Of a stretch of 47,710 nucleotides of DNA, positions 22,878 to 43,324 are shown piece by piece. Under the pieces are notes generated by a model that was not told where the DNA came from, searched no databases, and was given only the letters and a program-made list of their open reading frames with translations. A program made the position numbers and the translations under genes. The stretch's first letter is position 1. Each line of letters begins with the position of its first letter. The DNA comes from a virus. The stretch spans positions 1-47,710 of IMG/VR virus record IMGVR_UViG_3300024048_000001, one strand, 5' to 3'.

Positions 22878-24659
22878 TTATTGCTCCTGAAATTTTTCTT
22901 TATTATCTGTTATTAATTTTATCGAGGCCATAGCCGCCTCCGCCTGTTCTTCCGTAATAGCTCCTGCTTCGAGCAGCTTCATAACTGTAGAAGCCTGATC
23001 TTGTGCCGCAAACTCTTCATTGGTCATAAGGTATCTGTAAGGGTTGGCAAAGCCAACAGCATCATAGAGATCATAAAAAAGATTCTCAAGGTTTGCTCTG
23101 CTTGGATCAAGTTCAGCTATCTTAAGAGCTTCCTGAAGTTTGCCCTGTCTTACCATCTGGTCAGCAGGTAAATATGAACCATTAACAACACGCAGGTTCC
23201 TGTGATTCTTAAGGAACTCTTCTGGTATCCCTTTGTCTTTGAAATCAAAATCATCATATCTTGTGTAGAAAATAAGCAGTATATCCCATGTGACCGGATT
23301 ATAAAAAGAGCTTTCTATCCTTTTGGCAATAGCTGAATCGGACCGGACCAGTGCATTACTAATCATATCAGCAGCATCTTTAACTCTGATCTGTTTATCT
23401 TGGATACCGAAGGAAAGATCTGTAGTTCCTGTAACATAAAACAGAGCTTCCTTGGCCTTGTCATACATAAACTGAGCACCATTGGTAACTTCGGGTATCT
23501 GGAACTTCATCATTGCATCCTGAATACTTCTGACTTCTTTACCTACACTATCGACCGTGTACATCTTTGTTCCATCTGCCGGGTCCATAGCGAGAGGGTC
23601 AACCAGACAGTTGCCTAACATGAATATCGGAGCGGTATTATTGAAAGCATTATTATCTGCAACCTGATTGAACGCATTTGACATTGCGGCTACAGGCCAT
23701 TTAAGTTCTTCCCAAAGGGTTATGTAATCATCATAACAGAATCCAACATTGATCGGGATACGACTTGCATCACCATTACTTGAAGTTCCGGAGTCAACTA
23801 TTACTGCATCATTTACAACTACATAAAACATTCCGTCATTGGTGTAATATTCTCTGACTGTTACAACCGCTGTCGGTGCTACAAGTCCATGAATATCATT
23901 ACCTGAATTACTCTTAAGCTGATCTTCTGTCTGGCCAGTAGAGCCATTAACCTGTTTCTCATATTTAGGATACTTTGCCTTGAATGCACCATAAGTCATC
24001 TCGCTATTGGTAGTCACAATAATGTATCGTGCAGTATCACGATAACTGAGGGGGTCAGCATCCCAATCGAAGTAAGTTGTCATTGGATCATAAATACGGA
24101 AATCAATTGAGCCTTTATTATAGATCTCTTCTTTTGCTTTACGGCCATCTTTAAATTTCCATGCTTCACTCAGCATTTTCTCAAAAACTGTTTGCTGAAC
24201 AAAGATACCATCCCGGACAAAGTTAGTAATAATTCGTGGGTTTTTCCCAGAAAGATTTTTTCTTGTGTAAGATTTCGCAAGTTCTTTCTCAAGAAGTCTG
24301 CTTACCTTGACATAATCCTTGGTGTTGGCAGCCCATTCATATCTCGGAGGAATAGCTGTCATATTCTCTATCATCTTCTTACAGATAGCTTTGAACATAG
24401 GTAACAGCATTTTGGAGCAAGTTCTGGTAACAGATTGTGTGCCTGAATCATTTCCCCTGTTATCTCTGTCCGCAGTAGATGTCTCATAAACAGTCAGCAG
24501 TGCCTCATTACTTGCAGCTCCTTTAATGTCTGCCGGTATTTTCCCATTATATGCTTGCCTTGCATACGCCATCTTTTTCTTGAAACCAAGAAAAGCTTCC
24601 TGAGAACATTTAAGATCATTCTTGTACTGTTCTAAAACTGTTGTGTATTCTTCATTCAT
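22878..24659 (-). CDS. Portal (head-tail connector) protein
   Basis: A 593-aa protein between large terminase and scaffold, sharing one base with the terminase stop. Long helical N-terminus, mixed alpha/beta wing (about 140-330), a helical stem near residues 395-450 and a helical, E/A/Q-rich crown at the end (about 540-593) match portal architecture. It is longer than T7 gp8 (about 535 aa) but in the podovirus range. Assigned from order, length and secondary-structure pattern. Confidence 0.82.
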   Translation of the reverse strand: MNEEYTTVLEQYKNDLKCSQEAFLGFKKKMAYARQAYNGKIPADIKGAASNEALLTVYETSTADRDNRGNDSGTQSVTRTCSKMLLPMFKAICKKMIENMTAIPPRYEWAANTKDYVKVSRLLEKELAKSYTRKNLSGKNPRIITNFVRDGIFVQQTVFEKMLSEAWKFKDGRKAKEEIYNKGSIDFRIYDPMTTYFDWDADPLSYRDTARYIIVTTNSEMTYGAFKAKYPKYEKQVNGSTGQTEDQLKSNSGNDIHGLVAPTAVVTVREYYTNDGMFYVVVNDAVIVDSGTSSNGDASRIPINVGFCYDDYITLWEELKWPVAAMSNAFNQVADNNAFNNTAPIFMLGNCLVDPLAMDPADGTKMYTVDSVGKEVRSIQDAMMKFQIPEVTNGAQFMYDKAKEALFYVTGTTDLSFGIQDKQIRVKDAADMISNALVRSDSAIAKRIESSFYNPVTWDILLIFYTRYDDFDFKDKGIPEEFLKNHRNLRVVNGSYLPADQMVRQGKLQEALKIAELDPSRANLENLFYDLYDAVGFANPYRYLMTNEEFAAQDQASTVMKLLEAGAITEEQAEAAMASIKLITDNKEKFQEQ

Positions 24660-26503
24660 TATGCAAGTCTCCCGAACATCCCAGGTGTTCTAAGTGAAAT
24701 ATTTTTAAAGCTGCGATTCCTATTATGTTTCATCTTCTTTCTTAATCTTGCTGCGTGAACATCTGTAAGCTTGTCAATGTCAGCGACCATCATTACTGCA
24801 CAATCAACAAAATCCATTCCACCTACACCAAAGAACTGATCGATAAGTGTTCCAATAAATTTAACTCGGTCAAGGTCAGGATCATCTTTAATCTTAAGAA
24901 CTACCAATTCTTTCATTTCACAGGTAAGAGAAAGAACCTTATTGGCTACATCAACCTTGCTTCCTAAAGATTTCTCATGCTTAAAGTGATCCAAATACCT
25001 GAGTTTATCACGCATAAGCCTGATTTGTTCCTCATATAGCCCTGTCTGGCCCTGTCCTTGAGCATCCTGAACAAAGAAATCTATGTCATTTTTTAGTGCT
25101 AAACTGATATTTACGTCCTTAATACCACCGGTATCCATACCAAATGTCTGCCAAGCATCGTAAATCATGTAACAATTATCTGTAACAACGCTATTGATTA
25201 TGGAAAATCTTGACTTCTTATCACCTTCTTTCTTGCCTCTTTTAGAAAAAGACGGATCACATATCTGAGCAACGAGGTTACCTGCTTTAAGTTCGAGCAG
25301 TTCATCCATCGTAACTTCTATTACATTTCTTTCCCGACTGAATCCAATATCAAGCTGACCACCTTCAAATAGTCTTGGCTGCATCATCATCTGATTTGGG
25401 AACCACTCACCCTGCTGTATTTTCTGGTTAGCGAGTTCTGCATCCGTAAAATATCTACAGAGTCTAATCGTATCTCCGTCCCAATCCCATTCAGCCGGAA
25501 CTTCAAATACTGTAGCAATAGGAAAGTCTTCTTTGATCTTGGTGTAAATTGAATTTTCCCACCACTCCGTACCGGTCATATACATTATGAACTCATGATC
25601 GTCTCTGTATTGCTTCATGGCGAATAGAGTTCTGACAAAACTCATAAGCTGGTCGGTATCTTTTGGTGTCCTACTGGTGATATTTGTAACAAGATCATCT
25701 GCGAATACACCCTCGAAATGGAGTCCGGTCCTATCTATCTGCGGAGAACCTATTGTGAATGTAGCTTCTTTACGGAACTCGCTATTTGTAAAACCGTCTT
25801 TATCTTCCGCTTCTGTTTCCTCGTTATATGTAACAACATTAATTTTTTCTCTGGTAAGCAAATTACCGCTTCTTCTTTTAAACATCGAGGGATCATCGGT
25901 GAAGAGATCAGGAAATATTAATCCGAGATATGGACTCAGCATCATTTCCTTGATACTGGTCAGAAGACCTTTTGCCATTTCCTTATCAGAACTAACGACA
26001 AGCCACTTATATGTAGGATGACTAACAACTTCCCACATTGAACGAAGTCCAATCCATTTAGTGGTCTTTCCAGTACCACGAGACATCATAATAAGTTCTA
26101 TGGTTGCTCCTGGAACATATTTAAAGAAACCACCTTGACCTTCAGAGCATTTAAACTTTTCCGGAACATAACCGGTATTAAGAAAAGTGTCGAGAACTCT
26201 GTCAACAGGGAATACCCACTTTGGATCTGAAACCCACATGAAGAACTCAATACGATATTTTGTAAAGATATGCCGGAGGTAATTATACAATGTAAAATAT
26301 TTATAACTGATACTGTCTTCTGCATCGCCCGGGTAATGCTTCTTATATTCTTCACAGACCTTCTCAAAAGCTTCCGGCTCAATTGCTTTTATGTGTTTTT
26401 GACCTGTTTCTTCGAGTCTATTTAGAAGTATATTGAGATCTTTCTGGGTTGGCTCCCAATCATTAGACCGTTTGCGGAGCTTTTCAGCTGCTTTCTTTAC
26501 CAT
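24659..26503 (-). CDS. terL: Terminase large subunit
   Basis: A 614-aa packaging motor. The ATPase has Walker A SRGTGKTT (residues 141-148) and Walker B GVFADD (265-270); D270 is in the place of the usual catalytic acid. The C-terminal RNase H-like nuclease has its acidic residues at D416 (CDPSF), D480 (VQDAQG) and D564/D567 (MDFVDCAV). Strong similarity in style to T7-like gp19 enzymes. It shares one base with the portal start and directly follows the 105-aa gene. Packaging mode (cos, pac or direct repeats) cannot be told from this gene alone. Confidence 0.93.
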   Translation of the reverse strand: MVKKAAEKLRKRSNDWEPTQKDLNILLNRLEETGQKHIKAIEPEAFEKVCEEYKKHYPGDAEDSISYKYFTLYNYLRHIFTKYRIEFFMWVSDPKWVFPVDRVLDTFLNTGYVPEKFKCSEGQGGFFKYVPGATIELIMMSRGTGKTTKWIGLRSMWEVVSHPTYKWLVVSSDKEMAKGLLTSIKEMMLSPYLGLIFPDLFTDDPSMFKRRSGNLLTREKINVVTYNEETEAEDKDGFTNSEFRKEATFTIGSPQIDRTGLHFEGVFADDLVTNITSRTPKDTDQLMSFVRTLFAMKQYRDDHEFIMYMTGTEWWENSIYTKIKEDFPIATVFEVPAEWDWDGDTIRLCRYFTDAELANQKIQQGEWFPNQMMMQPRLFEGGQLDIGFSRERNVIEVTMDELLELKAGNLVAQICDPSFSKRGKKEGDKKSRFSIINSVVTDNCYMIYDAWQTFGMDTGGIKDVNISLALKNDIDFFVQDAQGQGQTGLYEEQIRLMRDKLRYLDHFKHEKSLGSKVDVANKVLSLTCEMKELVVLKIKDDPDLDRVKFIGTLIDQFFGVGGMDFVDCAVMMVADIDKLTDVHAARLRKKMKHNRNRSFKNISLRTPGMFGRLA

Positions 26504-28741: not shown

Positions 28742-29119
28742 TTAACTACCATAATCAATTTTTACGAGATTGCCTTTTAGAATCCCCCAATTGGACGGCT
28801 TGGAGTCAGATAGAATAAATTCACGCATATTATTGTTTTTGTATTTAGCCTCCAAATAATTACAGAAATTAAGGTGATTAATCCTGTTCGGGATCACATA
28901 AGCTCTTTTCATTATCAGGACAAAGCCAAAGATGTCAGCCCAGATTACAGGGCATAGACAATCATTTACACCCGAAAACAACTCTTCCTGCATGTTCGCC
29001 AGTAGCCCATGAAGAAATAGCCTCCAGGATAGAAACGTGGGGACTTTTACTACAAATGATTTAAAGACCAAGACCAAACGTGTAGCACCCCCGCATATCT
29101 TCACAGTATTAATCTCCAT
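28742..29119 (-). CDS. Very short protein-kinase/APH-like protein ending at its DFG-type motif
   Basis: A 125-aa protein. Visible kinase-fold landmarks in the right order: FVVKVP (possible beta-3 lysine K25), a downstream EE pair (45-46), a hydrophobic hinge-like strand (FGFVLIMKRA, 64-73), a catalytic-loop-like SDSKPSNWG (104-112; D105, K107, N110) and IDYGS (121-125; D122 and G124 in place of DFG). The protein stops one residue later, so activation segment and C-lobe helices are absent. Normal kinases need about 250 residues. It could be a minimal nucleotide-binding decoy or inhibitor. No RBS is seen before the ATG. Similar short proteins occur in phages, but the function is unknown to me. 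Confidence 0.7.
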   Translation of the reverse strand: MEINTVKICGGATRLVLVFKSFVVKVPTFLSWRLFLHGLLANMQEELFSGVNDCLCPVIWADIFGFVLIMKRAYVIPNRINHLNFCNYLEAKYKNNNMREFILSDSKPSNWGILKGNLVKIDYGS

Positions 29120-29359: not shown

Positions 29360-29527
29360 TGATACTAGAGCTTCGCATAACGTTCATTATGTAAACCTAG
29401 CCTTATAACAGCCTGTTTTTACTATCAATCCTCAACTGGGTAATAATGTCTCGGTGTCCTGTTGGAGTATCCCGCCAAAATCACGTCGCTAGTTATACAA
29501 ATACTAATACAATTCTCTTAAAGTTAA

Positions 29528-29698
29528 GAACTACTATTAATATAACTATCTTAAAGATACACAGTCTTAGGTATTGTCTTAGTTGTTAAGATAAGAACTA
29601 CTATAAATAGTATTCTTCTTGTTAATACAGGAACAACTATTAATAGTATTACAGTTACTAATACAGAAAGAAGAACTATATTAATATATATAATACTT
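29528..29698. repeat. AT-rich palindromic repeats with GAACWACTAT core
   Basis: Four related units start at GAAC positions 29528, 29595, 29631 and 29673 (spacings 67, 36 and 42 bp). Units 2 and 3 contain near-perfect dyads: ACTATAAATAGT-like and ACTATTAATAGT (12-bp perfect palindrome, 29636-29647). The set looks like binding sites of one factor or an AT-rich unwinding element at an origin. Degeneracy of units 1 and 4 lowers certainty. Confidence 0.55.
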
Positions 29699-29708
29699 AT
29701 AATACGCT

Positions 29709-29750: not shown

Positions 29751-29842
29751 GTGACGTTTTTTGTCACATTCCGTGGACCGTTATTTGCTACAGGTGACAA
29801 AGTTTGTCACGTGTCTTTACCATTTTTGTAATTTGTCACAAA
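29751..29842. promoter_or_regulatory. GTGAC-N7-GTCAC dyads (possible activator/enhancer sites)
   Basis: Site 1 is GTGAC-N7-GTCAC at 29751-29767. Site 2, GTGACAAAGTTTGTCAC at 29794-29810, is a perfect 17-base palindrome. Site 3 is TTTGTCACAAA at 29832-29842, sharing the TTTGTCAC half. Centres of sites 1 and 2 are 43 bp apart, about four helical turns. They lie roughly 107 and 150 bp before the start predicted for the sigma-54-type promoter, where enhancer-binding proteins normally bind. They could also be repressor or origin sites. Confidence 0.65.
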
Positions 29843-29881
29843 TCGCACACATACTTTCTAATCATATCAAGCAGTTACAAG

Positions 29882-29899
29882 TTGGCATACTTATTGCAA
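29882..29899 (+). promoter_or_regulatory. Sigma-54-type (-24/-12) promoter of the rightward unit
   Basis: The plus strand reads TTGGCATACTTATTGCAA. GG at 29884-29885 and GC at 29896-29897 are exactly 10 bases apart, and the flanks agree with the known TGGCAC-N5-TTGC consensus. A sigma-70 reading fails because the TATAAA at 29901-29906 is only 13 bases from TTGGCA. The first rightward gene starts 49 bp after the -12 element with AAGGAAGG. Dyads upstream add support. Experimental proof is lacking, and no phage-encoded sigma-54 activator is visible, so a host activator would be needed. Confidence 0.6.
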
Positions 29900-29947
29900 C
29901 TATAAAGGCGTTGACGTGTTTATTAATACTTTAGAAGGAAGGTAATT

Positions 29948-30076
29948 ATGAATTATTCCAGAATGCTTGAACTTGCAAAGATGACCGAAGATCAGTTGTT
30001 GGATATCCTTATCAGCAACGCGACTAACAACGTCGGTATAGGTGAGAATTTATACATTCTTAGAAACTTAGTTTAA
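29948..30076 (+). CDS. 42-aa first gene of rightward unit
   Basis: Starts with ATG preceded by GGAAGG in the leader of the rightward unit. A small helical peptide with an acidic centre (residues 8-20); no motif. Being first after the predicted sigma-54-type promoter it should be expressed at once on infection if the promoter is early. Unknown role, perhaps a host-takeover peptide. Confidence 0.62.
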   Translation: MNYSRMLELAKMTEDQLLDILISNATNNVGIGENLYILRNLV

Positions 30077-30095
30077 TTTTAGAAGGGGTGATACT

Positions 30096-30320
30096 ATGAT
30101 TATTGATTTAATGCTAGACAGAAAGGACGGCACAAATTATGTACCAAAACAGTTTTATTATGACGTAATGAATTATGGCGAAATTGGAAATAAGATTTCC
30201 CGTGCTATGGACAGTGGAAAAGAACTGGACATCAAAACAGCTCTATCTAATTACATACTTGAAAACGGATACAGTCTGGACATTACAGACTATATTTTTT
30301 CAGTCGATTGGTTGGTTTAA
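30096..30320 (+). CDS. 74-aa small acidic protein, unknown
   Basis: RBS block TTAGAAGGGGTG (30079-30090) precedes the ATG; the same block occurs before two other genes in this unit. The protein is acidic, mixed alpha/beta, with several tyrosines and aspartates in the C-terminal half. No family recognised. Its position suggests an early, small, host-directed function. Confidence 0.7.
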   Translation: MIIDLMLDRKDGTNYVPKQFYYDVMNYGEIGNKISRAMDSGKELDIKTALSNYILENGYSLDITDYIFSVDWLV

Positions 30321-30345
30321 TTAATACTTTGAGGGGGGTTCGGTT

Positions 30346-30654
30346 ATGTTGGTAGCTTTGGTTCACGATCATTTTGATAAAAATCATTTAGACAAAGTTG
30401 TAGCTGAAATGAAGAAACTTGGGACACCAAAAATAAAAGCTGTGTATGTTGAGTGTCACGACATGTATGTTGCTTTAGAAGGGTGTCATAGGCTTAGAGC
30501 TTGTGAAAAATTAGGCATCGTGCCTGAATTTGAGCTTTTAGAATATGATGATGTTTATGAGCTTAAAGGCGGACAAATAGGGATAGACAGCGACTGCAAA
30601 ATATCTGATATTTTAGATGATTGTCATAAAAGTACGATGATAGTTTTTGATTAA
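30346..30654 (+). CDS. Standalone ParB/sulfiredoxin-like domain protein
   Basis: A 102-aa protein. Residues 5-70 follow the ParB N-terminal fold: a helix (DKNHLDKVVAEMKKLG), a strand, and the diagnostic G46-C-H-R-L-R-A52 box after YVALE, then helix and EFELLEY. The GxHRxxA box forms the nucleotide-binding site in ParB, and related small domains have nuclease or other activities. There is no helix-turn-helix DNA-binding half, so partition is unlikely. An AGGGGGG-type RBS precedes the ATG. A role in DNA processing or as a CTP/ATP-binding switch is possible. Confidence 0.8.
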   Translation: MLVALVHDHFDKNHLDKVVAEMKKLGTPKIKAVYVECHDMYVALEGCHRLRACEKLGIVPEFELLEYDDVYELKGGQIGIDSDCKISDILDDCHKSTMIVFD

Positions 30655-30657
30655 GTA

Positions 30658-30713
30658 CCCCCCCCCAGACCTGAGCAAGTCTAAAACTGCTCGTGTTTAT
30701 TTTAATTTATTTT
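30658..30713 (+). other. C9 tract followed by weak hairpin and T-rich run
   Basis: After the ParB-like gene there are nine C residues (30658-30666), then GAGCA...TGCTC, a 5-bp stem with a bulge (about 30674-30693), then a T-rich run. It could act as an attenuator or weak terminator. The C tract might vary in length between molecules; it is noncoding. Confidence 0.4.
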
Positions 30714-30726
30714 TTGGAGCTAAACA

Positions 30727-30906
30727 ATGAACAACACAAAACCAATGGTTAAAATGCAAAGCGTTTGCGGTCAATGCTGTAAAACAAGCTGCCGCGGGTG
30801 CAGCAACTATCTCGGACGTGAACAAACAGTGAAACAAAGTATCTTAACTGATCTAATAGCAGTAATAGCTTTGTTTTCAGTATGTATATTAATATTTATT
30901 ATTTAA
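30727..30906 (+). CDS. Cys-rich protein with C-terminal membrane segment
   Basis: A 59-aa protein starting after TTGGAGC. Residues 14-25 contain the cluster C-G-Q-C-C-K-T-S-C-R-G-C, five cysteines within twelve residues, likely a zinc or metal site. Residues 40-59 (ILTDLIAVIALFSVCILIFII) form a clear transmembrane segment at the end. It would be tail-anchored with a metal site facing the cytoplasm. Too short for typical gene prediction but has a good RBS and a clear domain layout. Confidence 0.72.
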   Translation: MNNTKPMVKMQSVCGQCCKTSCRGCSNYLGREQTVKQSILTDLIAVIALFSVCILIFII

Positions 30907-30917
30907 GGGGAATTATT

Positions 30918-31097
30918 ATGCGAAAGTGTGAAATTTGTGGAAAAGAAGTTTCAAGGATTAATCTTGTAAAGGTTGCGGAATTTGAAACTATGCAAATGTG
31001 TGATGATTGTATAGAAGACGAAGAAGTAGTTCAGATCATTGATGATGATGATGATATTATAGATGAAGCTTTAAGATCAATAAGGGGATTATTATGA
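30918..31097 (+). CDS. Zinc-ribbon-like small protein
   Basis: A 59-aa protein with two CxxC knuckles: C4-E-I-C7 followed by G-K-E, and C27-D-D-C30, the classic spacing of a short zinc ribbon. The C-terminus is strongly acidic, with a D-D-D-D-D run. The start at 30918 has GGGGA upstream; an in-frame ATG 36 bp earlier overlaps the previous gene and lacks an RBS. It may bind host RNA polymerase or DNA-processing proteins; the partner is unknown. Confidence 0.78.
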   Translation: MRKCEICGKEVSRINLVKVAEFETMQMCDDCIEDEEVVQIIDDDDDIIDEALRSIRGLL

Positions 31098-31729
31098 AAG
31101 TAACAAAAAGAGACACACACGACGAGCTTGTCAAAGCTAACGACACAACCTATCTTTCACACTGGAATAAAGCAGTTAAAGAGGCTGAATTTCTGGAGGC
31201 ACTCTCTAAAAAGGTTGAGGCTCACATTGTAGCCGATACAGATAGCTGGTTACACCAGACAGTTTATGTTAAGTATAAAAAGCACAGGTTTATTGTCTGG
31301 AATAGAAACCTAAAATTCTCATGCTATATCAGAATGGCACACGGAATTGACCACTGGAGACAAAAGTCAAGGGAAAGTTTCGAACCAATGAATGGCTATG
31401 CTTTCTATAAAATGACAGAAAAGAAGTTGCTTGCTAAACTTGACAGAGAGATTGAAGAAATTGAGCTAGCCGATAAACTGGAAAAAGAAGCAAAAAAAGC
31501 CAGCGATATTAAATTTGTAGAAGCGAGAAAGAAAGTTGATTATATTGCTAAATGCTTGAATCTCGCAACAGTTACAAGTAAGCGTTTTAATTCCTATGCT
31601 GTGGAGTGGGACAGTATCCTCAGTCCAATATCAAAACAATGCGAAGTAAGTATAGATCCTAGGAACTATCACGTTGATGACCGTGGACTTGATGCAACTT
31701 ATAAACTGTTTAAAGCTATAAAGAGCTAA
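31094..31729 (+). CDS. 211-aa helical protein, unknown
   Basis: ATG overlaps the previous stop by 4 bp (ATGA). Helical, K/E-rich, with a short beta-like part around residues 45-85 (hydrophobic, aromatic) and a long charged helix at about 108-155. The gene is the largest of the early rightward cluster and ends just before a stable hairpin. No family recognised. Confidence 0.75.
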   Translation: MKVTKRDTHDELVKANDTTYLSHWNKAVKEAEFLEALSKKVEAHIVADTDSWLHQTVYVKYKKHRFIVWNRNLKFSCYIRMAHGIDHWRQKSRESFEPMNGYAFYKMTEKKLLAKLDREIEEIELADKLEKEAKKASDIKFVEARKKVDYIAKCLNLATVTSKRFNSYAVEWDSILSPISKQCEVSIDPRNYHVDDRGLDATYKLFKAIKS

Positions 31730-31744
31730 CTAAACAACCTTCTT

Positions 31745-31770
31745 AAAGCCTATTCTTCGGAGTGGGCTTT
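31745..31770 (+). terminator. Stable UUCG hairpin after the 211-aa gene
   Basis: An 11-bp stem AAAGCCTATTC-TTCG-GAGTGGGCTTT (two G-U pairs) with a C(UUCG)G tetraloop, 15 bp after the stop of the 211-aa gene. The downstream bases are TTTATAG, so the U-tract is short. It may be a partial terminator or an mRNA-processing/stability hairpin that separates the first seven genes from the rest. The same tetraloop closes the terminator at 19569-19588. Confidence 0.7.
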
Positions 31771-31808
31771 ATAGAGGGCGTGTTATTAATTTATTATGTG
31801 AGGGTATT

Positions 31809-32060
31809 ATGAAGTATTTAGAGGCAATGAAGACATTAAAGAATTACAGAAAAAAGACATTTAGAAAAAGCATTATCGACCTAACCCACCCCCTCGATGA
31901 AGAACATAAAAAACAAAAGTATTTCTACCAAGGGGAGGATTTTATCATTATCAGCAACGACTTTGTAGATCATCTTTATCAGACTGAAAGCTATCTATGC
32001 TGGGAAAAACTTAATAATGTCGTTTGTGCTTGTGAATATGTTTTTAGCAAGGAGGATTGA
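31809..32060 (+). CDS. 83-aa small protein, unknown
   Basis: First gene after the UUCG hairpin, with a G-A-G-G-G-T RBS. Basic helical N-terminus (residues 1-22), then D/E-rich and aromatic strands. A short stretch (residues 40-60) alternates hydrophobic and charged residues. No family recognised. Its stop precedes the next RBS. Confidence 0.7.
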   Translation: MKYLEAMKTLKNYRKKTFRKSIIDLTHPLDEEHKKQKYFYQGEDFIIISNDFVDHLYQTESYLCWEKLNNVVCACEYVFSKED

Positions 32061-32064
32061 ACCA

Positions 32065-32412
32065 ATGAAAAACCAACCAACATACATACAGTACAAGAGA
32101 CAAGAAATTAAGGGGCTAGTCATAGAGCGTTATAATAATCTTTATGACCTGAAACGCAACCCGGTACTAGCAGTCCTACTTGGAGACAAGGGAACTATAA
32201 GCAAAGTAACCAAACAGAAATACGGTGTCGTCTACATTCCTTGGGCTGAGCTGGCACTTCATAAAAAGATAAAGATCATCAGAGGAAGGAAAGGAAACTA
32301 CAAATACGAAATCTGGCGTAAAATCAGGGTTGAGGAATATATGGTGAATTATGAAATGAAGAAATATAACAGAGCGGGCGAAATCAAACAATTAGAAGGG
32401 GTGGCGGTATGA
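32065..32412 (+). CDS. 115-aa basic protein, unknown
   Basis: The ATG at 32065 follows AAGGAGG and the stop of the preceding gene; an in-frame ATG 48 bp earlier would overlap that gene. K/R/Y-rich, mixed alpha/beta, with an N-terminal helix (about 8-28) and several strands. Its last 38 bases and the following start are part of a 42-nt block repeated at 32919-32960, so this gene end is duplicated. Confidence 0.75.
   Translation: MKNQPTYIQYKRQEIKGLVIERYNNLYDLKRNPVLAVLLGDKGTISKVTKQKYGVVYIPWAELALHKKIKIIRGRKGNYKYEIWRKIRVEEYMVNYEMKKYNRAGEIKQLEGVAV
32371..32412. repeat. 42-nt gene-junction repeat, copy 1
   Basis: Differs from 32919-32960 at one base (T at 32391 versus C). This copy spans the end of the 115-aa gene (EIKQLEGVAV) and the RBS/ATG of the following 102-aa gene, so it carries a complete stop-RBS-start junction. 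The repeat seems to have been duplicated, or used as a recombination site, when small genes were added. Confidence 0.9.
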
Positions 32413-32717
32413 TTAGTTTAAAATGTATGGAATTAAGGTTAGTATCAAAAATGAGAACTGATTTAAACAGTCAAATGGTATCTGTTTTGAAAAGAACTGC
32501 TGTAATCAGAATCACAAAGTATTTCCCGAAAAGAAGTAATCAGTCAGAATCTAAAATTATTTGTTTTGATGAGTATGGATGTTTTATCAGAGCTTATGAT
32601 TTCAAGTATCACAGCAGAGGAAGTCTTAAGTCTTTTCTTCCGAAAAGAATAACTGTTATTGAGGACGGGTATTATTTGAGCAAAAAGAACTTTAATTACT
32701 ATGAGGTTACATCATGA
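32409..32717 (+). CDS. 102-aa basic protein, unknown
   Basis: ATG overlaps the preceding stop by 4 bp and follows the TAGAAGGGGTG block of the 42-nt repeat. Basic (K/R about 20 percent), with strands around residues 15-70 and few acidic residues in the middle. No recognised motif. Part of the tightly coupled early cluster. Confidence 0.7.
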   Translation: MISLKCMELRLVSKMRTDLNSQMVSVLKRTAVIRITKYFPKRSNQSESKIICFDEYGCFIRAYDFKYHSRGSLKSFLPKRITVIEDGYYLSKKNFNYYEVTS

Positions 32718-32887
32718 AGAAATCAGTTTATATAGGACAGGCAAGAAGTGGTGGAATTGTAATATCGCTTGTAACAGGGGGAGACACCTATCTAACCATT
32801 TCACAGGTAAGGGAACTCAAAATTGATGTTCTCTCTTTAGAAGATTTCCATATGGCTGATTTTACAAAGTTCTACGGAGGATTGTGA
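32714..32887 (+). CDS. 57-aa small beta-rich protein
   Basis: ATG overlaps the preceding TGA (ATGA). Short strands with a Gly/Ser-rich turn near residues 12-24 and an acidic C-terminal half; no cysteine or membrane segment. The gene is too short for a domain call. It is followed two bases later by the start of a truncated 17-codon reading frame. Confidence 0.6.
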   Translation: MKKSVYIGQARSGGIVISLVTGGDTYLTISQVRELKIDVLSLEDFHMADFTKFYGGL

Positions 32888-32889
32888 AA

Positions 32890-32943
32890 ATGATAACAGA
32901 TAAATCAGAACGGATATTAGAGCGGGCGAAATCAAACAACTAG
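32890..32943 (+). pseudogene. 17-codon remnant of the 33375-33602 gene
   Basis: Reads M-I-T-D-K-S-E-R-I-L-E-R-A and stops after 17 codons. The full gene at 33375-33602 begins M-I-T-N-K-S-T-R-I-L-R-R-A, so this looks like the severed start of a paralogue, joined to the 42-nt junction repeat that supplies its stop. Alternatively it is a leader peptide for the 59-aa gene that follows. The matching starts are visible at both protein and DNA level. Confidence 0.6.
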
Positions 32944-32960
32944 AAGGGGTGGCGGTATGA
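32919..32960. repeat. 42-nt gene-junction repeat, copy 2
   Basis: Second copy of 32371-32412 with one substitution. Here it contributes the stop of a 17-codon remnant and the RBS plus ATG of the 59-aa gene starting at 32957. The same DNA therefore provides translation signals for two unrelated proteins. Confidence 0.9.
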
Positions 32961-33136
32961 ATGTTAAAGAATGGAAAAAAGAAGCGTTGGAAATTATGGA
33001 AACAGAGTATGGTCTCGAAAACTGTATGTTTGAAGAAGTAACTTTGCTAAGGTCTTTTGATAGCGGCGACACACCGAGAGACTTCGCAAACTGGCAGGAA
33101 TCAAAACACAATCTGATTAACTTCAATGAGGGCTAA
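32957..33136 (+). CDS. 59-aa small acidic protein
   Basis: Starts inside the 42-nt repeat at an ATG preceded by GAAGGGGTGG. Acidic helical first half (E/K-rich), then D-S-G-D turn and aromatic end. Ends three bases before the start of the 81-aa gene. Unknown family; part of the small-gene cluster. Confidence 0.65.
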   Translation: MNVKEWKKEALEIMETEYGLENCMFEEVTLLRSFDSGDTPRDFANWQESKHNLINFNEG

Positions 33137-33139
33137 CCA

Positions 33140-33385
33140 ATGACAACAGATAAAAGCAAGAATGAGCAGGAACTAAGACACAGAATAGAGAACAATCTTG
33201 AGGGCGTAACGGCTGCGGATTGTTTCGGATATAAAACCTTCTTCGCATCAGGGGACGGCTTTGATATAATAGCAAGCTATGGTTTTAATTACAAGGGGAC
33301 TGCATCTATGATGTTGGAATCTATGCTCTGGCATGATCTAATGTTCGGGCCCAGGCATTTGACGGAGGAAAAAAATGATAACTAA
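33140..33385 (+). CDS. 81-aa small protein with MTTDKS start
   Basis: ATG follows GGGCTAACCA. The N-terminus M-T-T-D-K-S resembles those of the genes at 32890, 33375 and 33890, which suggests shared translation-start modules. The rest is helical with a Gly-rich, aromatic middle (residues 30-55). It overlaps the next start by 11 bp. Function unknown. Confidence 0.7.
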   Translation: MTTDKSKNEQELRHRIENNLEGVTAADCFGYKTFFASGDGFDIIASYGFNYKGTASMMLESMLWHDLMFGPRHLTEEKNDN

Positions 33386-33602
33386 TAAGAGTACAAGGAT
33401 TTTACGCAGGGCGGTCGGGTGGCTAACTCTCTGGGCCGGATACGCCAAAGAAGATAGAAAGAGCGGGACACGTGACAACAGGGACTCTGAGGAAGCAGAA
33501 AATATCTGGCGTATGGCTAAGCAGGAACTAGACAGGCTAGACCGACCAGTTAAATTGACTGTTGCAAGATACATGGAACTAATTGAAGGAGCGGGAAAAT
33601 GA
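33375..33602 (+). CDS. 75-aa basic helical protein, unknown
   Basis: Start with GGAGG seven bases upstream. Arg/Lys-rich helix in the first 30 residues, then a charged helical segment; no membrane region despite a short W-L-T-L-W-A-G stretch. Paralogous in its first 13 residues to the 17-codon remnant at 32890. Overlaps the next start by 4 bp. Confidence 0.68.
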   Translation: MITNKSTRILRRAVGWLTLWAGYAKEDRKSGTRDNRDSEEAENIWRMAKQELDRLDRPVKLTVARYMELIEGAGK

Positions 33603-33886
33603 AACTTTACACACAAATTAAGAAGAACAACAAACTTATTCCTTTGACATCTTACAACGACAAAATGCTTTGCAGAGATCCAAAGGGTTATAAGTGGATA
33701 TTGTTGAAATGGAACGATCTGTTCTCCGGCAAGCGGGTTTATGCTGAAGTGTTGAATGATGCAAAGGGACGACTTGTTTGTACTGTAGCAGGTAACTGTG
33801 AGATTATGCGAACACAGCGGGAGCAGGTATATATCAAAAAGATGTGCAATGATATGAAAACATCAATACCATTAGTGAGGCAATAA
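33599..33886 (+). CDS. 95-aa small protein, unknown
   Basis: Start overlaps the preceding stop by 4 bp. Basic protein with strands (residues 5-15, 25-60) and a helical C-terminus (residues 75-90). It contains three cysteines without clear zinc spacing. Ends three bases before the next ATG. Function unknown. Confidence 0.68.
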   Translation: MKLYTQIKKNNKLIPLTSYNDKMLCRDPKGYKWILLKWNDLFSGKRVYAEVLNDAKGRLVCTVAGNCEIMRTQREQVYIKKMCNDMKTSIPLVRQ

Positions 33887-33889
33887 CCA

Positions 33890-34132
33890 ATGACAACTAA
33901 AAACAGCATAGGCAAGAAGTACATACAGGCAGACTTCAACTATATCCTGAATACCGCTAAACAGGCAAAAGATCAAGCGGAGAACCTAAGAGGGAAAATA
34001 GGCGAACTGAAAGAAGCGGTGTTCACACTTGATGAATTTGAGATTTATTGCTTGGATACGATCAAGGAACTGACCGGCAAGGACTTGCATAACTTTGCAA
34101 TGGATAACAACTATGGAAGGAGTGAAAAATGA
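33890..34132 (+). CDS. 80-aa helical protein, unknown
   Basis: ATG within AACCAATGACAAC, the same start-proximal pattern as the 33140 gene. Mostly helical (K/A/E-rich, about residues 15-70), acidic centre, no membrane segment. It overlaps the following membrane protein gene by 4 bp. No family recognised. Confidence 0.68.
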   Translation: MTTKNSIGKKYIQADFNYILNTAKQAKDQAENLRGKIGELKEAVFTLDEFEIYCLDTIKELTGKDLHNFAMDNNYGRSEK

Positions 34133-34296
34133 ACCAGGACGATATTTATATCCTAACGATCATATTAATTCTGCTTCCACTATTCATAGTAGGGTACTTC
34201 CTCAACAGGGAGCAAGATCAGATAGATGCGTGGTATCTTAAAGAGTACGGCAAGGAAAGACACCCGAAGAAGGTTAAGCGGAAAGATAGGTGGTAG
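34129..34296 (+). CDS. 55-aa single-pass membrane protein
   Basis: ATGA overlap with the preceding stop. An N-terminal transmembrane segment at about residues 6-25 (IYILTIILILLPLFIVGYFL) is followed by a charged, basic tail (K/R/D-rich). It is the last gene before the terminator region and could be a small host-takeover or exclusion protein; a holin is possible but less likely in the early unit. Confidence 0.68.
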   Translation: MNQDDIYILTIILILLPLFIVGYFLNREQDQIDAWYLKEYGKERHPKKVKRKDRW

Positions 34297-34318
34297 AATT
34301 CCCCAATGATTCCAATTG

Positions 34319-34489
34319 TTATATTTTAATGCTACTATTTTAATCCAATCATTTCCATTACTTACAAAATAACCTTAGTAAATGTTTATACTACACAAAA
34401 AGATACTTTTTAAATGTTATATTATTTTACTAACACTGATCTCGACCATGAATAAAAACAAGCGGTTGACTGTTAGCATTAAAATATAA
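34319..34489. repeat. 16-bp inverted repeat pair spaced 139 bp
   Basis: TTATATTTTAATGCTA at 34319-34334 and its exact complement TAGCATTAAAATATAA at 34474-34489. Such an exact 16-bp inverted match is improbable by chance even in AT-rich DNA. The region between is AT-rich and without genes. It could bring a looped segment together or mark a former mobile or origin element. Confidence 0.75.
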
Positions 34490-34522
34490 GGTTGTTTTGG
34501 GGGTTCAAATATACAAGGTGAT

Positions 34523-34559
34523 CAGAGCTTTTGGCTTTGAGTTTTTTCTTTCTTTTTTT
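34523..34559 (+). terminator. Intrinsic terminator ending the first rightward gene cluster
   Basis: Stem CAGAGC-TTTTG-GCTTTG (one G-U pair) at 34523-34539 followed by A and a nearly continuous 19-base T-rich run to 34559. The stem is short but the U-run is long, a good rho-independent arrangement. It separates the early small genes from the operon starting at 34851. Confidence 0.7.
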
Positions 34560-34690
34560 CAAAAAACTATGCTCTATATACGAACTTTGAAAACAACAAA
34601 CGATCTAAGAACTTACACAGATTAGTTTATTTATAAAGTAAAACCTTCTTATATATTTTCAAGTAGTCCGGGATATTCTCTAAATATTTC

Positions 34691-34769
34691 GAGCGGGCAA
34701 TTTATTTTCACAACATTTTCCTAATAAAGTTGAGTGGGCTGATTATTTTCAAGTGGGCGATCTTTTTTA
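34691..34769. repeat. Three 19-nt direct repeats upstream of the recombination operon promoter
   Basis: Copies at 34691-34709, 34732-34750 and 34751-34769 share RAGYGGGC followed by an AT-rich half (consensus RAGYGGGCNATYWTTTTYA). Copies 2 and 3 are directly joined, and copy 3 abuts the -35 box. This looks like an activator- or repressor-binding array for the promoter next to it. Confidence 0.75.
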
Positions 34770-34798
34770 TTGACTTAGTGTGTTAACACATGTAAGAT
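34770..34798 (+). promoter_or_regulatory. Promoter with palindromic operator-like spacer
   Basis: TTGACT (34770-34775), 17-bp spacer, TAAGAT (34793-34798). The spacer contains the perfect 12-base palindrome TGTGTTAACACA at 34779-34790, placed between the two boxes where a bound dimer would block or remodel RNA polymerase. The first gene of the DNA-processing operon starts 52 bp downstream. Confidence 0.78.
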
Positions 34799-34850
34799 TC
34801 TAAAGATGGTATTTGCTGCGGAGCAACAACAACATATTATTGGAGATTAT

Positions 34851-35528
34851 ATGATTAACCTTTACAATAAAGACTGTATGAAGTTTATGGCAGACAAACC
34901 AGATAAGTATTATGACTTAGCTATTGTAGATGTTCCTTATGGTTCAAAAAATATTCAAGGTGGTTATACTTCAGGAATAGGAGGTCAAGGATCTGCAAAA
35001 CAAAAGAATTATTGTAAATCGATTTGGAAGTGTGGTTGTCCAGATAAACAGTATTTTGAAGAATTATTCAGAGTAAGTAAAGATCAAATAATTTGGGGAG
35101 CTAACCATTTTATGTCTAAAATCCCATTCGATTCTAGCTGTTGGATAGTTTGGGATAAAAAAAATGAGAATACAGATTATGCTGATTGTGAATTAGCGTG
35201 GACTTCTTTTAATAGTGCTGTTAGAAAGTTTGAATTTATGTGGAATGGAATGTTGCAAGGTGATATGAAAAACAAACAGCAGAGAATACACCCGACTGAG
35301 AAGCCTGTATCCTTGTATGAATGGCTACTAGACAAGTACGCTAAGAAAGGAAACAAAATATTTGATAGTCATGGAGGAAGTATGAGCAGTGCAATAGCTT
35401 GTTATAACCTAGGCTATGATTTAGATATATGTGAGCTAGACCCTGAATATTTCAAACAGGCGAAGGAAAGGTTTGAGCAGCATACAAGACAGATAAGATT
35501 AACAGACTTTACGGAGCAAACTAAATGA
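34851..35528 (+). CDS. DNA adenine/cytosine-N4 methyltransferase
   Basis: A 225-aa amino-methyltransferase. Catalytic motif IV is D27-V-P-Y30 (usual DPPY; proline 28 replaced by valine). The SAM-binding motif I follows at residues 171-177, F-D-S-H-G-G-S (usual FxGxG), and motif II acidic pairs at E195-D197. Motif IV before motif I is the normal order of this N6/N4 type. The ATG at 34851 is chosen for its GGAG; the in-frame start 45 bp earlier lacks an RBS. Likely protects phage DNA from host restriction; specificity unknown. ATGA overlap with the next gene. Confidence 0.82.
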   Translation: MINLYNKDCMKFMADKPDKYYDLAIVDVPYGSKNIQGGYTSGIGGQGSAKQKNYCKSIWKCGCPDKQYFEELFRVSKDQIIWGANHFMSKIPFDSSCWIVWDKKNENTDYADCELAWTSFNSAVRKFEFMWNGMLQGDMKNKQQRIHPTEKPVSLYEWLLDKYAKKGNKIFDSHGGSMSSAIACYNLGYDLDICELDPEYFKQAKERFEQHTRQIRLTDFTEQTK

Positions 35529-37384
35529 GATTTAAAACGATCAGAGTAAAGAACTTTCAGGGAGTAGCAGAGCATCTTGCTAACTTACAAGGAAAATCAG
35601 CCAACATCTATGCAAGGAATGGTAAGGGTAAGACAACAGTTTTTAAGAACGCTATTCTTTGGAATCTGTTTGAGAAAGATCACCGAGGCCACAAGCTTGA
35701 CCCTAAGCCACGTAAAAATGACGGTCGTGGTGAACGTATCAGAGGACTTATCCCAGAAGTAGAACTTGTTATTGAGCTTGACAATGGAGCAGAGATAACT
35801 CTTTTAAGAAGACTTGAAGAAAAGGTAGTTAAAAAAACCAAGCTCTATAAAGCAGATGAAGGTTATTGGGAAGTTGACGGTGTTGGAGTTAATAAAACTC
35901 AGTTCGATAATAAAGTTAAAGAAATTATCGGTGATCCGGAAATATTCTCTGTAATGCTGAATCCAGAAGTTTTCCTTACTGACAAGAAATGGGATAAACG
36001 AAGATCTTTCCTTGAAAAGATGATGGGTGAAGTACAACTTGAAGAAGTAATCAAAGGCAGTGATATTGAGATACTTAATGGCAAACCATTGAATGATGCC
36101 CTTGAAATAGCTAGGAGTGCTCTTAAGAAAGCTGAAGATAAACTATCAAAGATAGCACCAAAGATGGAAGAAGCACAGAGAAAAGTACCCGGTGCTCCTG
36201 AGATACTTACAAAGACACAGGCTGAACTTAAAACTGAACTTGATGAAACTGTAAACGCCAGACTTGCTGAAGAAGAAGCCTGTAAGAATCCTGATTTCAG
36301 TAAGAGAAGTACACTGATTGCTAAAATTGATAAGCTGAAAGAAAGAGATAAAGAATCTTACAATAAGACTCTGAGAACTATTGACAGCAGTATTGATGAT
36401 CTTGAGAAAAGGATACTCAGTTACAATACTCAGATTTCTTCAATCCGGACAAGTATTCCAAGGAAACAGGAAGAGATAACTAATCTTTCTGAAAAGCTTG
36501 ATGAAATGAGAGCTAAGTATTCCGACTTTGAATCAGAAAAGTTTGAAGAAGCCAAGTGTGTTACTTGTGGACAGGACCTCCCGGTATATCTGAAAGAAGA
36601 ATATGAAAAACTATTCAACATAGAACACGCCAAAACACTTAAAGAAATGCTTGACATTGGAAAATCAAAGAAGATAGAAATAACTGAACTCAATGAAGAG
36701 GTGGTTGACAGAAAGATTGATCTTGAGAAAAACCTCACAGAAAAAGAAGCACTACTTGAATCTATAAATGACCTCAGAGAGAAGAAAAAGACCACAACCC
36801 TTACTGAGTCACCTGAAATAGCAGAACTCACCACAGAACTAAACTCCGTTCGTGAAACAGGCGAATTACAGAAGTCAGAAAGACTCGCAGGACTCGAAGG
36901 TCAGGAAAAGGGTATCAGAGAGTCAATTGCTACCTTTACTTCTGCACAGAATAATGTTGCCAGAGTTAAGGAACTTGAAAAAGAAGAAGAAGATCTCGGT
37001 GAAGTGGTAACAGAATGTAGAAGAATAAAAGATCTTACCCTGGGTGTTCAGAGAAAATGGAATCTCAAAATTGAGCAGAAAGTGAACAAACTCTTTTCTC
37101 TTATCAAGTGGAGACTGTCAGAGGAACAGAAGAACGGTGAACCAAAGGACGTGTGTGAAGCAATGTATAAAGGGATTGACTATAATAAAACCGTTTCCAA
37201 TGGTGAAGGTGTCAATATGTGCTATGACCTTCATAAAACGATCAGTGATTTCTATGGTATCAAGTTTCCTTTTATTGCTGACAACAGTGAGAGTGTTACA
37301 GATTGGTTGGTTGAATCAGATAATCAGGTTATTTACCTGTATGCTGACAAGAAATATAATGAACTTAAAATGGAGATTTTGTAA
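35525..37384 (+). CDS. SbcC/Rad50-like ATPase of phage recombination operon
   Basis: A 619-aa SMC-type ATPase. Walker A is R31-N-G-K-G-K-T-T38; then long coiled coil (about 190-330), a zinc-hook-like CVTC (C345, C348), more coiled coil and a C-terminal FPFIADNSESV (about 581-591) that resembles the Walker B/D-loop of phage members of this group. Typically shorter than bacterial SbcC (over 1000 aa). It precedes RecT and MBL genes, as in many Gram-positive siphophages, and is probably part of DNA end processing. No SbcD-type nuclease gene is next to it. Confidence 0.85.
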   Translation: MRFKTIRVKNFQGVAEHLANLQGKSANIYARNGKGKTTVFKNAILWNLFEKDHRGHKLDPKPRKNDGRGERIRGLIPEVELVIELDNGAEITLLRRLEEKVVKKTKLYKADEGYWEVDGVGVNKTQFDNKVKEIIGDPEIFSVMLNPEVFLTDKKWDKRRSFLEKMMGEVQLEEVIKGSDIEILNGKPLNDALEIARSALKKAEDKLSKIAPKMEEAQRKVPGAPEILTKTQAELKTELDETVNARLAEEEACKNPDFSKRSTLIAKIDKLKERDKESYNKTLRTIDSSIDDLEKRILSYNTQISSIRTSIPRKQEEITNLSEKLDEMRAKYSDFESEKFEEAKCVTCGQDLPVYLKEEYEKLFNIEHAKTLKEMLDIGKSKKIEITELNEEVVDRKIDLEKNLTEKEALLESINDLREKKKTTTLTESPEIAELTTELNSVRETGELQKSERLAGLEGQEKGIRESIATFTSAQNNVARVKELEKEEEDLGEVVTECRRIKDLTLGVQRKWNLKIEQKVNKLFSLIKWRLSEEQKNGEPKDVCEAMYKGIDYNKTVSNGEGVNMCYDLHKTISDFYGIKFPFIADNSESVTDWLVESDNQVIYLYADKKYNELKMEIL

Positions 37385-37884
37385 TGACAACAAGTATTAT
37401 TATCCTGATTATTTTTGTAGTAGTGCTGATTATTGACATGGTTATTAGGGCTAAGTGGAAGTCTGACGTTAAAGCATACATCGTGGAAAAAACAGAGCAA
37501 ATTGGAGAGAACTCGGTTATACTTAACTCTTCTGTTATGACCAATGTCCAGAGCAGTCACCACCTAAACAAAACTCTCGTTGAAGGTCTTATAGCATCTA
37601 ATGAGGTCTTTACTGGAGGACTCGAAGAAACCTCTATCCTAAACATCAAACTCATTGAAGACTTTGTTGAATTATCCGACTCAGAGTACAAGCGAACAAT
37701 CAAACAGCTTATGGCAGAGAAGGATAACGCAGTTGCTATGCACCTTCAGCTTATAACTGCTATTAAGAGTCTGAAAGATAGTGACAGGACTAAAATACAG
37801 TATCGACTTGACAACATTACAGGACTTAAAAATGGTAAAGAGAGAAGAGTTCCTGCAACAAAAAATAAAAATGGAGGAAAGTAA
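37384..37884 (+). CDS. Membrane-anchored coiled-coil protein between SbcC-like and RecT
   Basis: ATG shares one base with the SbcC-like stop (TAATG). An N-terminal transmembrane segment at residues 4-22 (SIIILIIFVVVLIIDMVI) is followed by a helical, charged body of about 140 residues and a basic K/N/G-rich end. A membrane-tethered helical protein inside a recombination operon is unusual and could anchor a recombination or replication complex. Unknown family. Confidence 0.78.
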   Translation: MTTSIIILIIFVVVLIIDMVIRAKWKSDVKAYIVEKTEQIGENSVILNSSVMTNVQSSHHLNKTLVEGLIASNEVFTGGLEETSILNIKLIEDFVELSDSEYKRTIKQLMAEKDNAVAMHLQLITAIKSLKDSDRTKIQYRLDNITGLKNGKERRVPATKNKNGGK

Positions 37885-37885
37885 A

Positions 37886-38728
37886 ATGAGCAACAATTTA
37901 CCTATGCTTTCATCACTTAAAAACATTCTCAAGAGAGAGGACATTATTGAAAGATTCGTTGGTATGCTCGGAAAAGCTGAAGCAAAAGTTTTTTCCGCAA
38001 GTATTATCAATATCACTTCAGGTAGCAGTGCTCTTCAAAAGTGTACTGAAAAAAGTATTATGATGGCTGCTTTTAAATCTGCTGCACTCAAACTTCCAAT
38101 AGACCCTGCACTTGGAAGAGCTTATATAATTCCATACGGAAGTGTAGCAACTTTTCAGCTTGGATACAAAGGACTCAGAGAACTTGCTATCAGGTCTAGA
38201 CTGTATGAGAAAATCAAAACTGCCGAAATCTATGAAGATGATCTTAAGAGCTATGATCCGATCACCGGTGACATTGAATTTACCGACCTTGAAACAAGGA
38301 AAGACAGAGAAGATCCGAAGAAAGACCCAATTGGTTATTATGCTTTCTTCATAATGAACACAGGCTTTAAAGCAAACGTTTATATGAGCAAGAAGGAAGT
38401 AGAGAATCATGGTAAGAAATTCTCTCAGGCATACAAGAAGGGTAAAAAGGATTGTCCTTGGTTTACAGATTTTGATAAAATGGCTTGTAAAACTGTCCTA
38501 AAAAGATTGCTGAATGATAACGGTATCCTCTCAATTGAAATGCAGACAGGTATGGTTGGTGACTCTAAGGAAGAACCTATTGAAGTTCAGGATGCTGTTG
38601 TAACTGAAAGACCTGAAGCAAAGAAAGTTGAGAAGAAAGCACCTAAACCAAAGGATAAGGACGTGATTGACAATCCGCATGAGCCTGTTGATACTGAAAA
38701 GAAAAAAGAAAAAGACCCTTTTGATTAG
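37886..38728 (+). CDS. recT: RecT-type single-strand annealing protein
   Basis: A 280-aa protein. The ATG at 37886 is preceded by GGAGG; in-frame ATGs further upstream run through the previous gene. The RecT family core (about residues 25-215) is seen in segments such as LGYKGLRELAIR, IYEDD, YYAFF and the K-M-A-C-K-T-V-L-K-R-L-L stretch, which form the DNA-binding groove. The C-terminus is acidic then basic, typical for interaction with SSB. It works with SSB in strand annealing to build concatemers or repair phage ends. Confidence 0.9.
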   Translation: MSNNLPMLSSLKNILKREDIIERFVGMLGKAEAKVFSASIINITSGSSALQKCTEKSIMMAAFKSAALKLPIDPALGRAYIIPYGSVATFQLGYKGLRELAIRSRLYEKIKTAEIYEDDLKSYDPITGDIEFTDLETRKDREDPKKDPIGYYAFFIMNTGFKANVYMSKKEVENHGKKFSQAYKKGKKDCPWFTDFDKMACKTVLKRLLNDNGILSIEMQTGMVGDSKEEPIEVQDAVVTERPEAKKVEKKAPKPKDKDVIDNPHEPVDTEKKKEKDPFD

Positions 38729-38738
38729 GAGTTGATTA

Positions 38739-39425
38739 ATGATTAAAGCACTTGCATCCGGAAGCACCGGAAACGCATATCTCCTTGGTAGAATCTTAAT
38801 AGAATGCGGTATTCCGTATCCCAAGATTCTCAAATTAGGTGGATGGATAACTCCAAAAGCCTGTATCATAACTCATTCCCATAACGATCACGCAAAATCT
38901 ACCAAGGATGTTGCTAAGCACGGTATTCCAATTTATGCAAGTGCCGGGACTCTGGATGAAATTGACCCTAAAGGAAAGCTCAGAAGAGCTTATGTTATGA
39001 GTCCTGAAACTCCTTATCAGATACTTGACTGGACTGTTACTCCATACACGTCCAAACATTGTTTTGGAGCTTTCTACTACATTTTGGAGAAGGATAATGA
39101 GAAGCTTATTTTTTCTACAGATAATGCACAGATTGAAGAAGACCATGCAGACCTCACAGAAATCTATATTGAAGCTAATTATTCAGAGGAAGACTTGAAG
39201 AAGAATGAATATCTCAGGGACAGCAAGAGAGTAGAAGCTATAAGGGTTCATATGAGCCTGGAAGATTGCTTGGAGTTCCTAAACAGACAAGATCTGAGCA
39301 CCGTAAGGAAAATAATATTGATTCATTTATCCGCTGAAAATTCTGATCCAGCAGATTACGTTAATAGGATACAATCAGCAACAGGAGTCCCCACATATAT
39401 TGCAACAGAGGAAATTGACAGATGA
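38739..39425 (+). CDS. Metallo-beta-lactamase-fold hydrolase (probable nuclease partner of RecT)
   Basis: A 228-aa MBL-fold protein. The metal motif H46-S-H48-N-D50-H51 is intact; a later histidine near residue 101 (YTSKHCFG), aspartate in STDNAQ (about 126) and H in LIHLSAENSD (about 202) are the other metal ligand candidates. Phage members next to RecT are thought to act as DNA exonucleases, in the place taken by RecE or lambda exonuclease elsewhere. It follows RecT by 10 bp with AGGAG. A promoter and hairpin that appear to serve the HNH gene begin at its stop. Confidence 0.83.
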   Translation: MIKALASGSTGNAYLLGRILIECGIPYPKILKLGGWITPKACIITHSHNDHAKSTKDVAKHGIPIYASAGTLDEIDPKGKLRRAYVMSPETPYQILDWTVTPYTSKHCFGAFYYILEKDNEKLIFSTDNAQIEEDHADLTEIYIEANYSEEDLKKNEYLRDSKRVEAIRVHMSLEDCLEFLNRQDLSTVRKIILIHLSAENSDPADYVNRIQSATGVPTYIATEEIDR

Positions 39426-39443
39426 ATAATTGTTTGGTACAGT
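39415..39443 (+). promoter_or_regulatory. Promoter of the homing endonuclease gene
   Basis: TTGACA (39415-39420), 17-bp spacer, TACAGT (39438-39443), one mismatch per box or less. The -35 is inside the last codons of the MBL gene. The predicted start of transcription lies near 39450, upstream of the ATG at 39518 but downstream of the ATG at 39422, which is one reason to prefer the later start. Confidence 0.7.
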
Positions 39444-39448
39444 TTGGT

Positions 39449-39487: not shown

Positions 39488-39517
39488 AGCGAACCTGTGA
39501 AGATGGAGGAACATCTC

Positions 39518-40426: not shown

Positions 40427-40436
40427 GGAGAAAGCT

Positions 40437-41739: not shown

Positions 41740-41752
41740 AGGAGAGTAAAAG

Positions 41753-42564: not shown

Positions 42565-42593
42565 TAACGTCAACAATATTAAGGAGTTACCCA

Positions 42594-43300: not shown

Positions 43301-43324
43301 TCTAAAACTTTCTACAAAAACTTC

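Follow-up and report, generated by a model that had tools for sequence, protein, structure and literature searches.

Phages normally rely on the housekeeping sigma factor for their early genes, which hence fire in any cell. The use of host sigma-54 for phage genes is known from the Pseudomonas phage YuA (Ceyssens et al. 2008, cited in PMC5053324), which is cited as strictly sigma-54 dependent (PMC5053324). The YuA record NC_010116 annotates three -24/-12 promoters, located in the structural and lysis region. The phage promoter discussed here shares the predicted use of host sigma-54, but it carries palindromic dyads of the type GTGAC-N7-GTCAC, which are lacking at the YuA promoters, and it heads an operon on the replication side of the genome. 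Scored with the matrix derived from host pilA promoters, YuA reaches 11.1 at best, compared with 39.8 for this promoter.

In phage K5, a palindrome in front of a phage gene is the site of action of the host DNA-binding regulator SrpA (PMC5945682). The same principle is proposed here, but the regulator and its site are different, and sigma-54 is not mentioned in the text searched (PMC5945682). Phage LSL4 acts on the PilS-PilR circuit, which is also the circuit proposed here, through its protein PIT4; however, PIT4 is a kinase-binding protein and not a promoter exploiting the regulator (PMC10714779).

PilR/sigma-54 control of the pilin gene pilA is established in Geobacter (PMC2725144), where the PilR gene is known to lie next to pilA (PMC2725144), and in P. 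aeruginosa (PMC10714779). In Xylella, NtrC and PilR are the only activators and pilA1 has a sigma-54 promoter (PMC3224663); control by PilR is likely. The hallmarks of the PilR site in P. aeruginosa, TGT-N11-AGA and GTCT elements (PMC6058289), differ from the dyads described below. A phage promoter tied to PilR was not found in the open-licence literature searched. Thus, phage use of host sigma-54 is known already from YuA, while an apparently widespread type of promoter that ties early genes to a named host circuit would be new.

Architecture of the control region

The phage record was analysed over its whole length of 47,710 bases (hereafter the window). It has a G+C content of 38.8%, and no host is given in the record. 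A divergent control region separates a leftward array (280–29359) from a rightward array (29948–47622). The leftward array consists of late and structural ORFs on the minus strand, including the terminase at 24659–26503. The rightward array starts with an ORF for an unknown protein of 42 aa (29948–30076, plus strand, taken from the ORF list), which has no match in PHROG. It is followed on the plus strand by the early and replication genes (30096–47622), which include RecT, a DNA methyltransferase, an SSB-like ORF, RusA, a protein with a metallo-beta-lactamase fold, and many small ORFs.

The sigma-54 -24/-12 core TTGGCATACTTATTGCAA lies on the plus strand at 29882–29899, with a predicted transcription start near 29908. 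Its GG (29884–29885) and GC (29896–29897) are separated by exactly 10 bases. The core fits the TGGCAYR-N4-TTGCW context of sigma-54-dependent promoters, and differs from TGGCACG-N4-TTGCW by two mismatches, both located between the GG and GC elements. Upstream of the core, two enhancer dyads without strand orientation are present. The distal dyad GTGACGTTTTTTGTCAC (29751–29767) is an exact GTGAC-N7-GTCAC match centred at about -149 from the start, while the proximal dyad GTGACAAAGTTTGTCAC (29794–29810) is a perfect 17-mer palindrome centred at about -106. Both centres fit the range of upstream activator sites, which is about 80 to 150 bases before the start. No further exact GTGAC-N7-GTCAC occurs on either strand of the 47.7 kb, and the gap from the proximal dyad to the TGG of the core measures 72 bases. 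An extra half-site TTTGTCAC at 29832–29839 (plus strand) may provide a weak third contact; its sequence occurs three times on the plus strand of the window, always within the control region. Between the dyads and the core, an IHF consensus TATCAAGCAGTTA at 29865–29877 (plus strand) marks a putative DNA bend. The IHF pattern WATCAANNNNTTR has three matches in the whole window when both strands are counted. A Shine-Dalgarno-like stretch AGAAGGAAGG, read from the sequence, follows at 29934–29943 (plus strand).

Other features were observed in the same region. On the minus strand, 29861–29888 contains a leftward, extended -10 sigma-70-like promoter (TGATATGAT), which shares bases with both the IHF site and the sigma-54 core. 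A genuine promoter here would run against the rightward one and might supply transcripts of the late genes. Further to the left, the A+T-rich stretch 29490–29705 carries repeated CTACTATTAATA-like units and inverted repeats, and a G+C-rich palindromic run GCACGCGTGC follows at about 29709. Together, these repeats and the palindromic run may represent a replication origin.

The same element in cellular genomes

Viral contigs were searched with the pattern GTGAC-N7-GTCAC, 55–85 bases, TGGCA-N6-TTGC, and cellular genomes with the same pattern and a slightly stricter core. In 38 of the 66 cellular sites, a type IV pilin start (MxxGFTLIELMIVVAIIGIL) was found within 220 bases. These pilin-associated sites occur in Xanthomonas, Geobacter, Myxococcales, betaproteobacteria, Aminicenantes, Acidobacteria, and others. 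Seven whole genomes of 3–8.7 Mb contain exactly one site each, namely the pilA one, although they had been selected from among the pilA hits. A scan of 297 genomes of one phylum yielded four sites, all before a pilin gene and, save one, not pre-selected from pilA hits; the reversed-pattern control yielded none. In cellular genomes, the strict combination of dyad and core thus largely marks pilA.

A gene for an NtrC-family response regulator neighbours seven of the pilA loci, and the encoded regulators have a similar recognition helix (FRSxRYKL type). When the pilA-adjacent regulators were compared with NCBIfam, no PilR model was listed, and several NtrC-family models matched below cut-off. PilR as the binder of the dyad is inferred from the location of the dyad before pilA and from these adjacent regulator genes, without binding data.

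The gap between dyad and core is helically phased in the pilA promoters (Rayleigh p ~5e-8). Almost the same phase is seen in the viral set, and the gap of 72 bases in the window is in phase. The host pilA promoters share with the phage promoter the GTGAC-N7-GTCAC dyad, the helically phased gap, the TTGGCAY-N5-TTGCW core and, in some cases, an IHF site. They differ in the gene that follows, which is a pilin there and a small phage gene heading a replication operon here. The window promoter therefore resembles a pilA promoter but is not one, as the ORF downstream encodes 42 aa of unknown function and no pilin.

Another 27 distinct host sites are not located before a pilin gene; many of them have a gap near 55 and are out of phase with pilA, for example those before cbpA/DnaJ-like and small unknown genes. 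Ten host loci with sigma-54-like promoters and the same dyad at a gap near 55 were noted separately (L079, L088, L120, L130, L131, L082, L085, L100, L116, and L127). The gap-55 loci are out of phase with pilA, lie before genes for DnaJ/CbpA-like proteins and a small conserved protein, and belong mostly to gammaproteobacteria. It is conceivable that they answer to a different activator that shares the dyad.

Specificity of the combined signal

Matrices for the dyad and the core were built from 38 distinct host pilA promoters. With the dyad matrix, the distal and proximal dyads score 18.2 and 24.5 bits, respectively. On either strand of the window, no position scores higher than the core at 29882–29899 (14.0 bits, the next being 10.2), and TGGCA-N7-TGC occurs only once in the window, at the promoter core. 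The joint score of dyad and core amounts to 38.6 bits at this site, whereas unrelated places in the window do not exceed 6.3 bits and the best scores of ten simulated windows range from 4.7 to 12.1 bits. The lowest-scoring pilA promoters of the training set, which matches by construction, reach 40.4 bits.

The core alone is not decisive, because a near-identical look-alike, TGGCGTACTTATTGC, arises on the minus strand at 21942. The case for a promoter therefore rests on the dyads combined with the core. The look-alike itself was dismissed as a promoter, as it is located inside coding sequence. Other assignments of the palindromes were also rejected. A CRP/FNR-type site (TGTGA-N6-TCACA) is ruled out by the spacing of 9 between TGTGA and TCACA, and the NmpR site has a different sequence, GCGCA-N5-TGCGC (PMC11841059). 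NtrC sites are of another, TGCACC-type sequence, and a reading as NtrC sites was likewise rejected.

A preceding sequence-only reading had proposed a sigma-54 promoter with GG and GC exactly 10 bases apart, palindromes at about -107 and -150, one of them a perfect 17-mer, and no good sigma-70 promoter before the first rightward gene. These three claims held. The sequence and coordinates of the core were right, the centres of the dyads shift only to about -106 and -149, and sigma-70-like matches in the region reach only 9–10 of 12, with no strong rightward one before the first gene.

Occurrence in other viruses

In viral contigs, the search pattern was found in 61 stretches. Lengthening the core by one base reduced this number to 9, and scrambling the dyad to 10; judging by these controls, roughly five sixths of the 61 stretches are probably genuine. 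The viral set includes some host-derived sequence, as at least L019 is itself a pilA promoter. An independent scan of viral contigs, which used only two neighbouring dyads, gave at least 119 stretches. Sigma-54 cores scoring at least 21 of 24 were found downstream in 18 clusters (the window scores 22.5), compared with 0, 0, 0 and 1 clusters in four controls with wrong spacing. Many viral contigs carry paired dyads without a sigma-54 core.

The element was inspected in twelve viruses with full or near-full contigs of 20–87 kb, where it mostly lies ahead of short unknown genes. Several of the twelve combine paired dyads with a divergent region, as in the window. In G010, dyads at 39511 and 39545 precede a core at 39612, and in G008, dyads at 16990 and 17045 precede a core at 17134, both in a divergent layout. 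A similar arrangement is present in G020, G019, G021, G025, and G034. Several such contigs can be assigned to phages, because PHROG matches identify hallmark proteins, namely terminase, portal, head-closure, and phage DNA polymerase or primase-helicase. Of 46 viral promoters, 7 have an IHF-like site between dyad and core, where 0.3 would be expected.

Two variations of these elements were also observed. In G025 (locus L154), two tandem full-consensus sigma-54 cores TTGGCACGATAGTTGCTAC at positions 136 and 176 have no perfect dyads of their own and are additional to the core behind the dyads. In L189, L224, L251, and L257, arrays of GTGAC-N7-GTCAC with a regular spacing of 20 or of 36 and 48 bases have no sigma-54 core; they could be coding repeats or operator arrays.

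The window proteins show almost no similarity to those at the loci of the first viral scan. The element is therefore a recurrence rather than a sign of whole-phage shared descent. Close relatives of the phage remained elusive. The 211-aa early protein, the terminase, and a 463-aa structural protein have no close relatives in viral contigs, the latter two have no relative in 50,697 phage records, and none of 395 genomes of the Geobacter-like phylum contains the terminase. A search with RecT returned a sole match, the viral record L296 of 9,982 bases, which is 100% identical to window positions 33102–43083. This record is uninformative on the promoter, as the shared stretch ends short of it. Its identity indicates that the same phage has been assembled elsewhere too. 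The leftward gene at 28742–29119 (minus strand) matches phrog_4301. Its identity is about 45% with uncharacterised proteins of T4-like coliphages and about 42% with those of Aeromonas phages, in a phage otherwise almost without relatives. The element was also not found when eight known phages, some of them pilus-dependent, were scanned with the pilA matrix (YuA, the first 50 kb of F116, Mx8, CP1, DLP2, and three spring-water phages); the best score was 17.1, compared with 39.8 for the window.

The remaining claims of the sequence-only reading can be judged from these results. It had stated that no activator is encoded and that a host AAA+ activator would be required. This is supported, as no sigma-54 activator above the family cut-off is encoded in the window or in 34 viral contigs with the pattern. 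Its suggestion of host nitrogen, stress or motility control narrows to motility, given that the dyad and core mostly mark PilR-controlled pilA in cellular genomes. Two checks that it proposed were run. The scan of cellular genomes for GTGAC-N7-GTCAC upstream of sigma-54 cores placed the majority of sites directly before type IV pilin genes, and the search of phage genomes showed the layout recurring in mostly unrelated viral contigs, while conservation in close relatives could not be judged for lack of an informative one. Overall, sigma-54 control of a phage early operon by a host activator is supported, in the absence of transcription start or rpoN data.

Proposed mechanism and alternative explanations

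The stretch 29751–29899 is likely a PilR/sigma-54 early promoter that mimics the host pilA promoter. What is shown comprises the sequence elements, the fact that they occur together in viral contigs more often than by chance, the association with pilA promoters, the lack of a detected phage activator, and the location at the start of an operon. Binding of PilR, the action of IHF, the early timing, the dependence on pili, the host, and transcription itself are inferred. Upon phage entry, the sigma-54 polymerase of the host would sit in a closed complex at 29882–29899. Phosphorylated dimers of host PilR, the NtrC-family member of the PilS-PilR pair, would occupy both dyads and then assemble, while IHF would bend the gap between dyads and core. 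The AAA+ ATPase of PilR would then hydrolyse ATP and open the complex, driving the rightward early operon from about 29908. Early expression would thus require that the pilus circuit of the cell is switched on. The phage would rely on a regulator whose activity coincides with type IV pilus production, a plausible reason being that the pili serve as its receptor. A point against the pilA-mimic reading is that the host is unidentified, so neither PilR nor such a pilA promoter has been shown in it.

The nearest alternative, though an unlikely one, is a sigma-54 early promoter that answers not to PilR but to a different NtrC-family activator of the host with the same dyad as its target. It draws support from the 27 distinct host sites not before pilin, of which those at a gap near 55 are out of phase, and from the different PilR hallmarks in P. 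aeruginosa (PMC6058289). Against it, the whole-genome scans found solely the pilA site, both in the 7 of 7 genomes chosen from pilA hits and for 4 of 4 sites in the phylum scan, and the gap of 72 shares the helical phase of the pilA class and not that of the gap-55 class. There is much less to be said for the dyads being operators of a phage repressor or Cro-like protein next to a coincidental sigma-54-like core. A divergent control region with perfect dyads is what phage operators typically look like, and paired dyads without a core are frequent in viral contigs. However, no repressor was recognised among the scanned proteins (although most window proteins match no family), no convincing sigma-70 promoter overlaps the dyads, the viral signal collapses in both pattern controls, and pilA promoters have the same layout.

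Similarly improbable is a decoy function, in which replicating phage DNA would titrate PilR, lower pilA expression and block superinfection, with transcription being secondary. With two strong sites per genome, multiple copies of the phage DNA could sequester a regulator, and the attack of PIT4 on PilS is a precedent (PMC10714779). A decoy, however, would not need a sigma-54 core at a fixed helical distance, a ribosome site and an operon, and the core is retained together with the dyads across phages. Finally, the near-perfect resemblance to pilA promoters could reflect the chance capture of a host promoter that is now inert. This is very unlikely, as the element recurs in dozens of viral contigs, where it stands at the start of operons, its start signals are intact and no pilin remnants are present.

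Significance for phage biology

Beyond the single locus, the pilA-mimic promoter permits a bolder reading, which the evidence favours only by a modest margin. According to it, a broad set of uncultured tailed phages gates its early operons via the type IV pilus circuit of the host, and the state of the probable receptor system of the cell decides whether early genes are expressed. Independently of this reading, a compact pilA/PilR signature was obtained across several bacterial phyla. If the bolder reading is true, infection would be gated by the regulatory circuit of the receptor itself, via an ATP-driven host activator, and pilR and rpoN mutants are predicted to be resistant at a post-adsorption step. 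It would also provide a sequence signature for the host assignment of uncultured phages, and would explain how some phages avoid waste in non-permissive cells.
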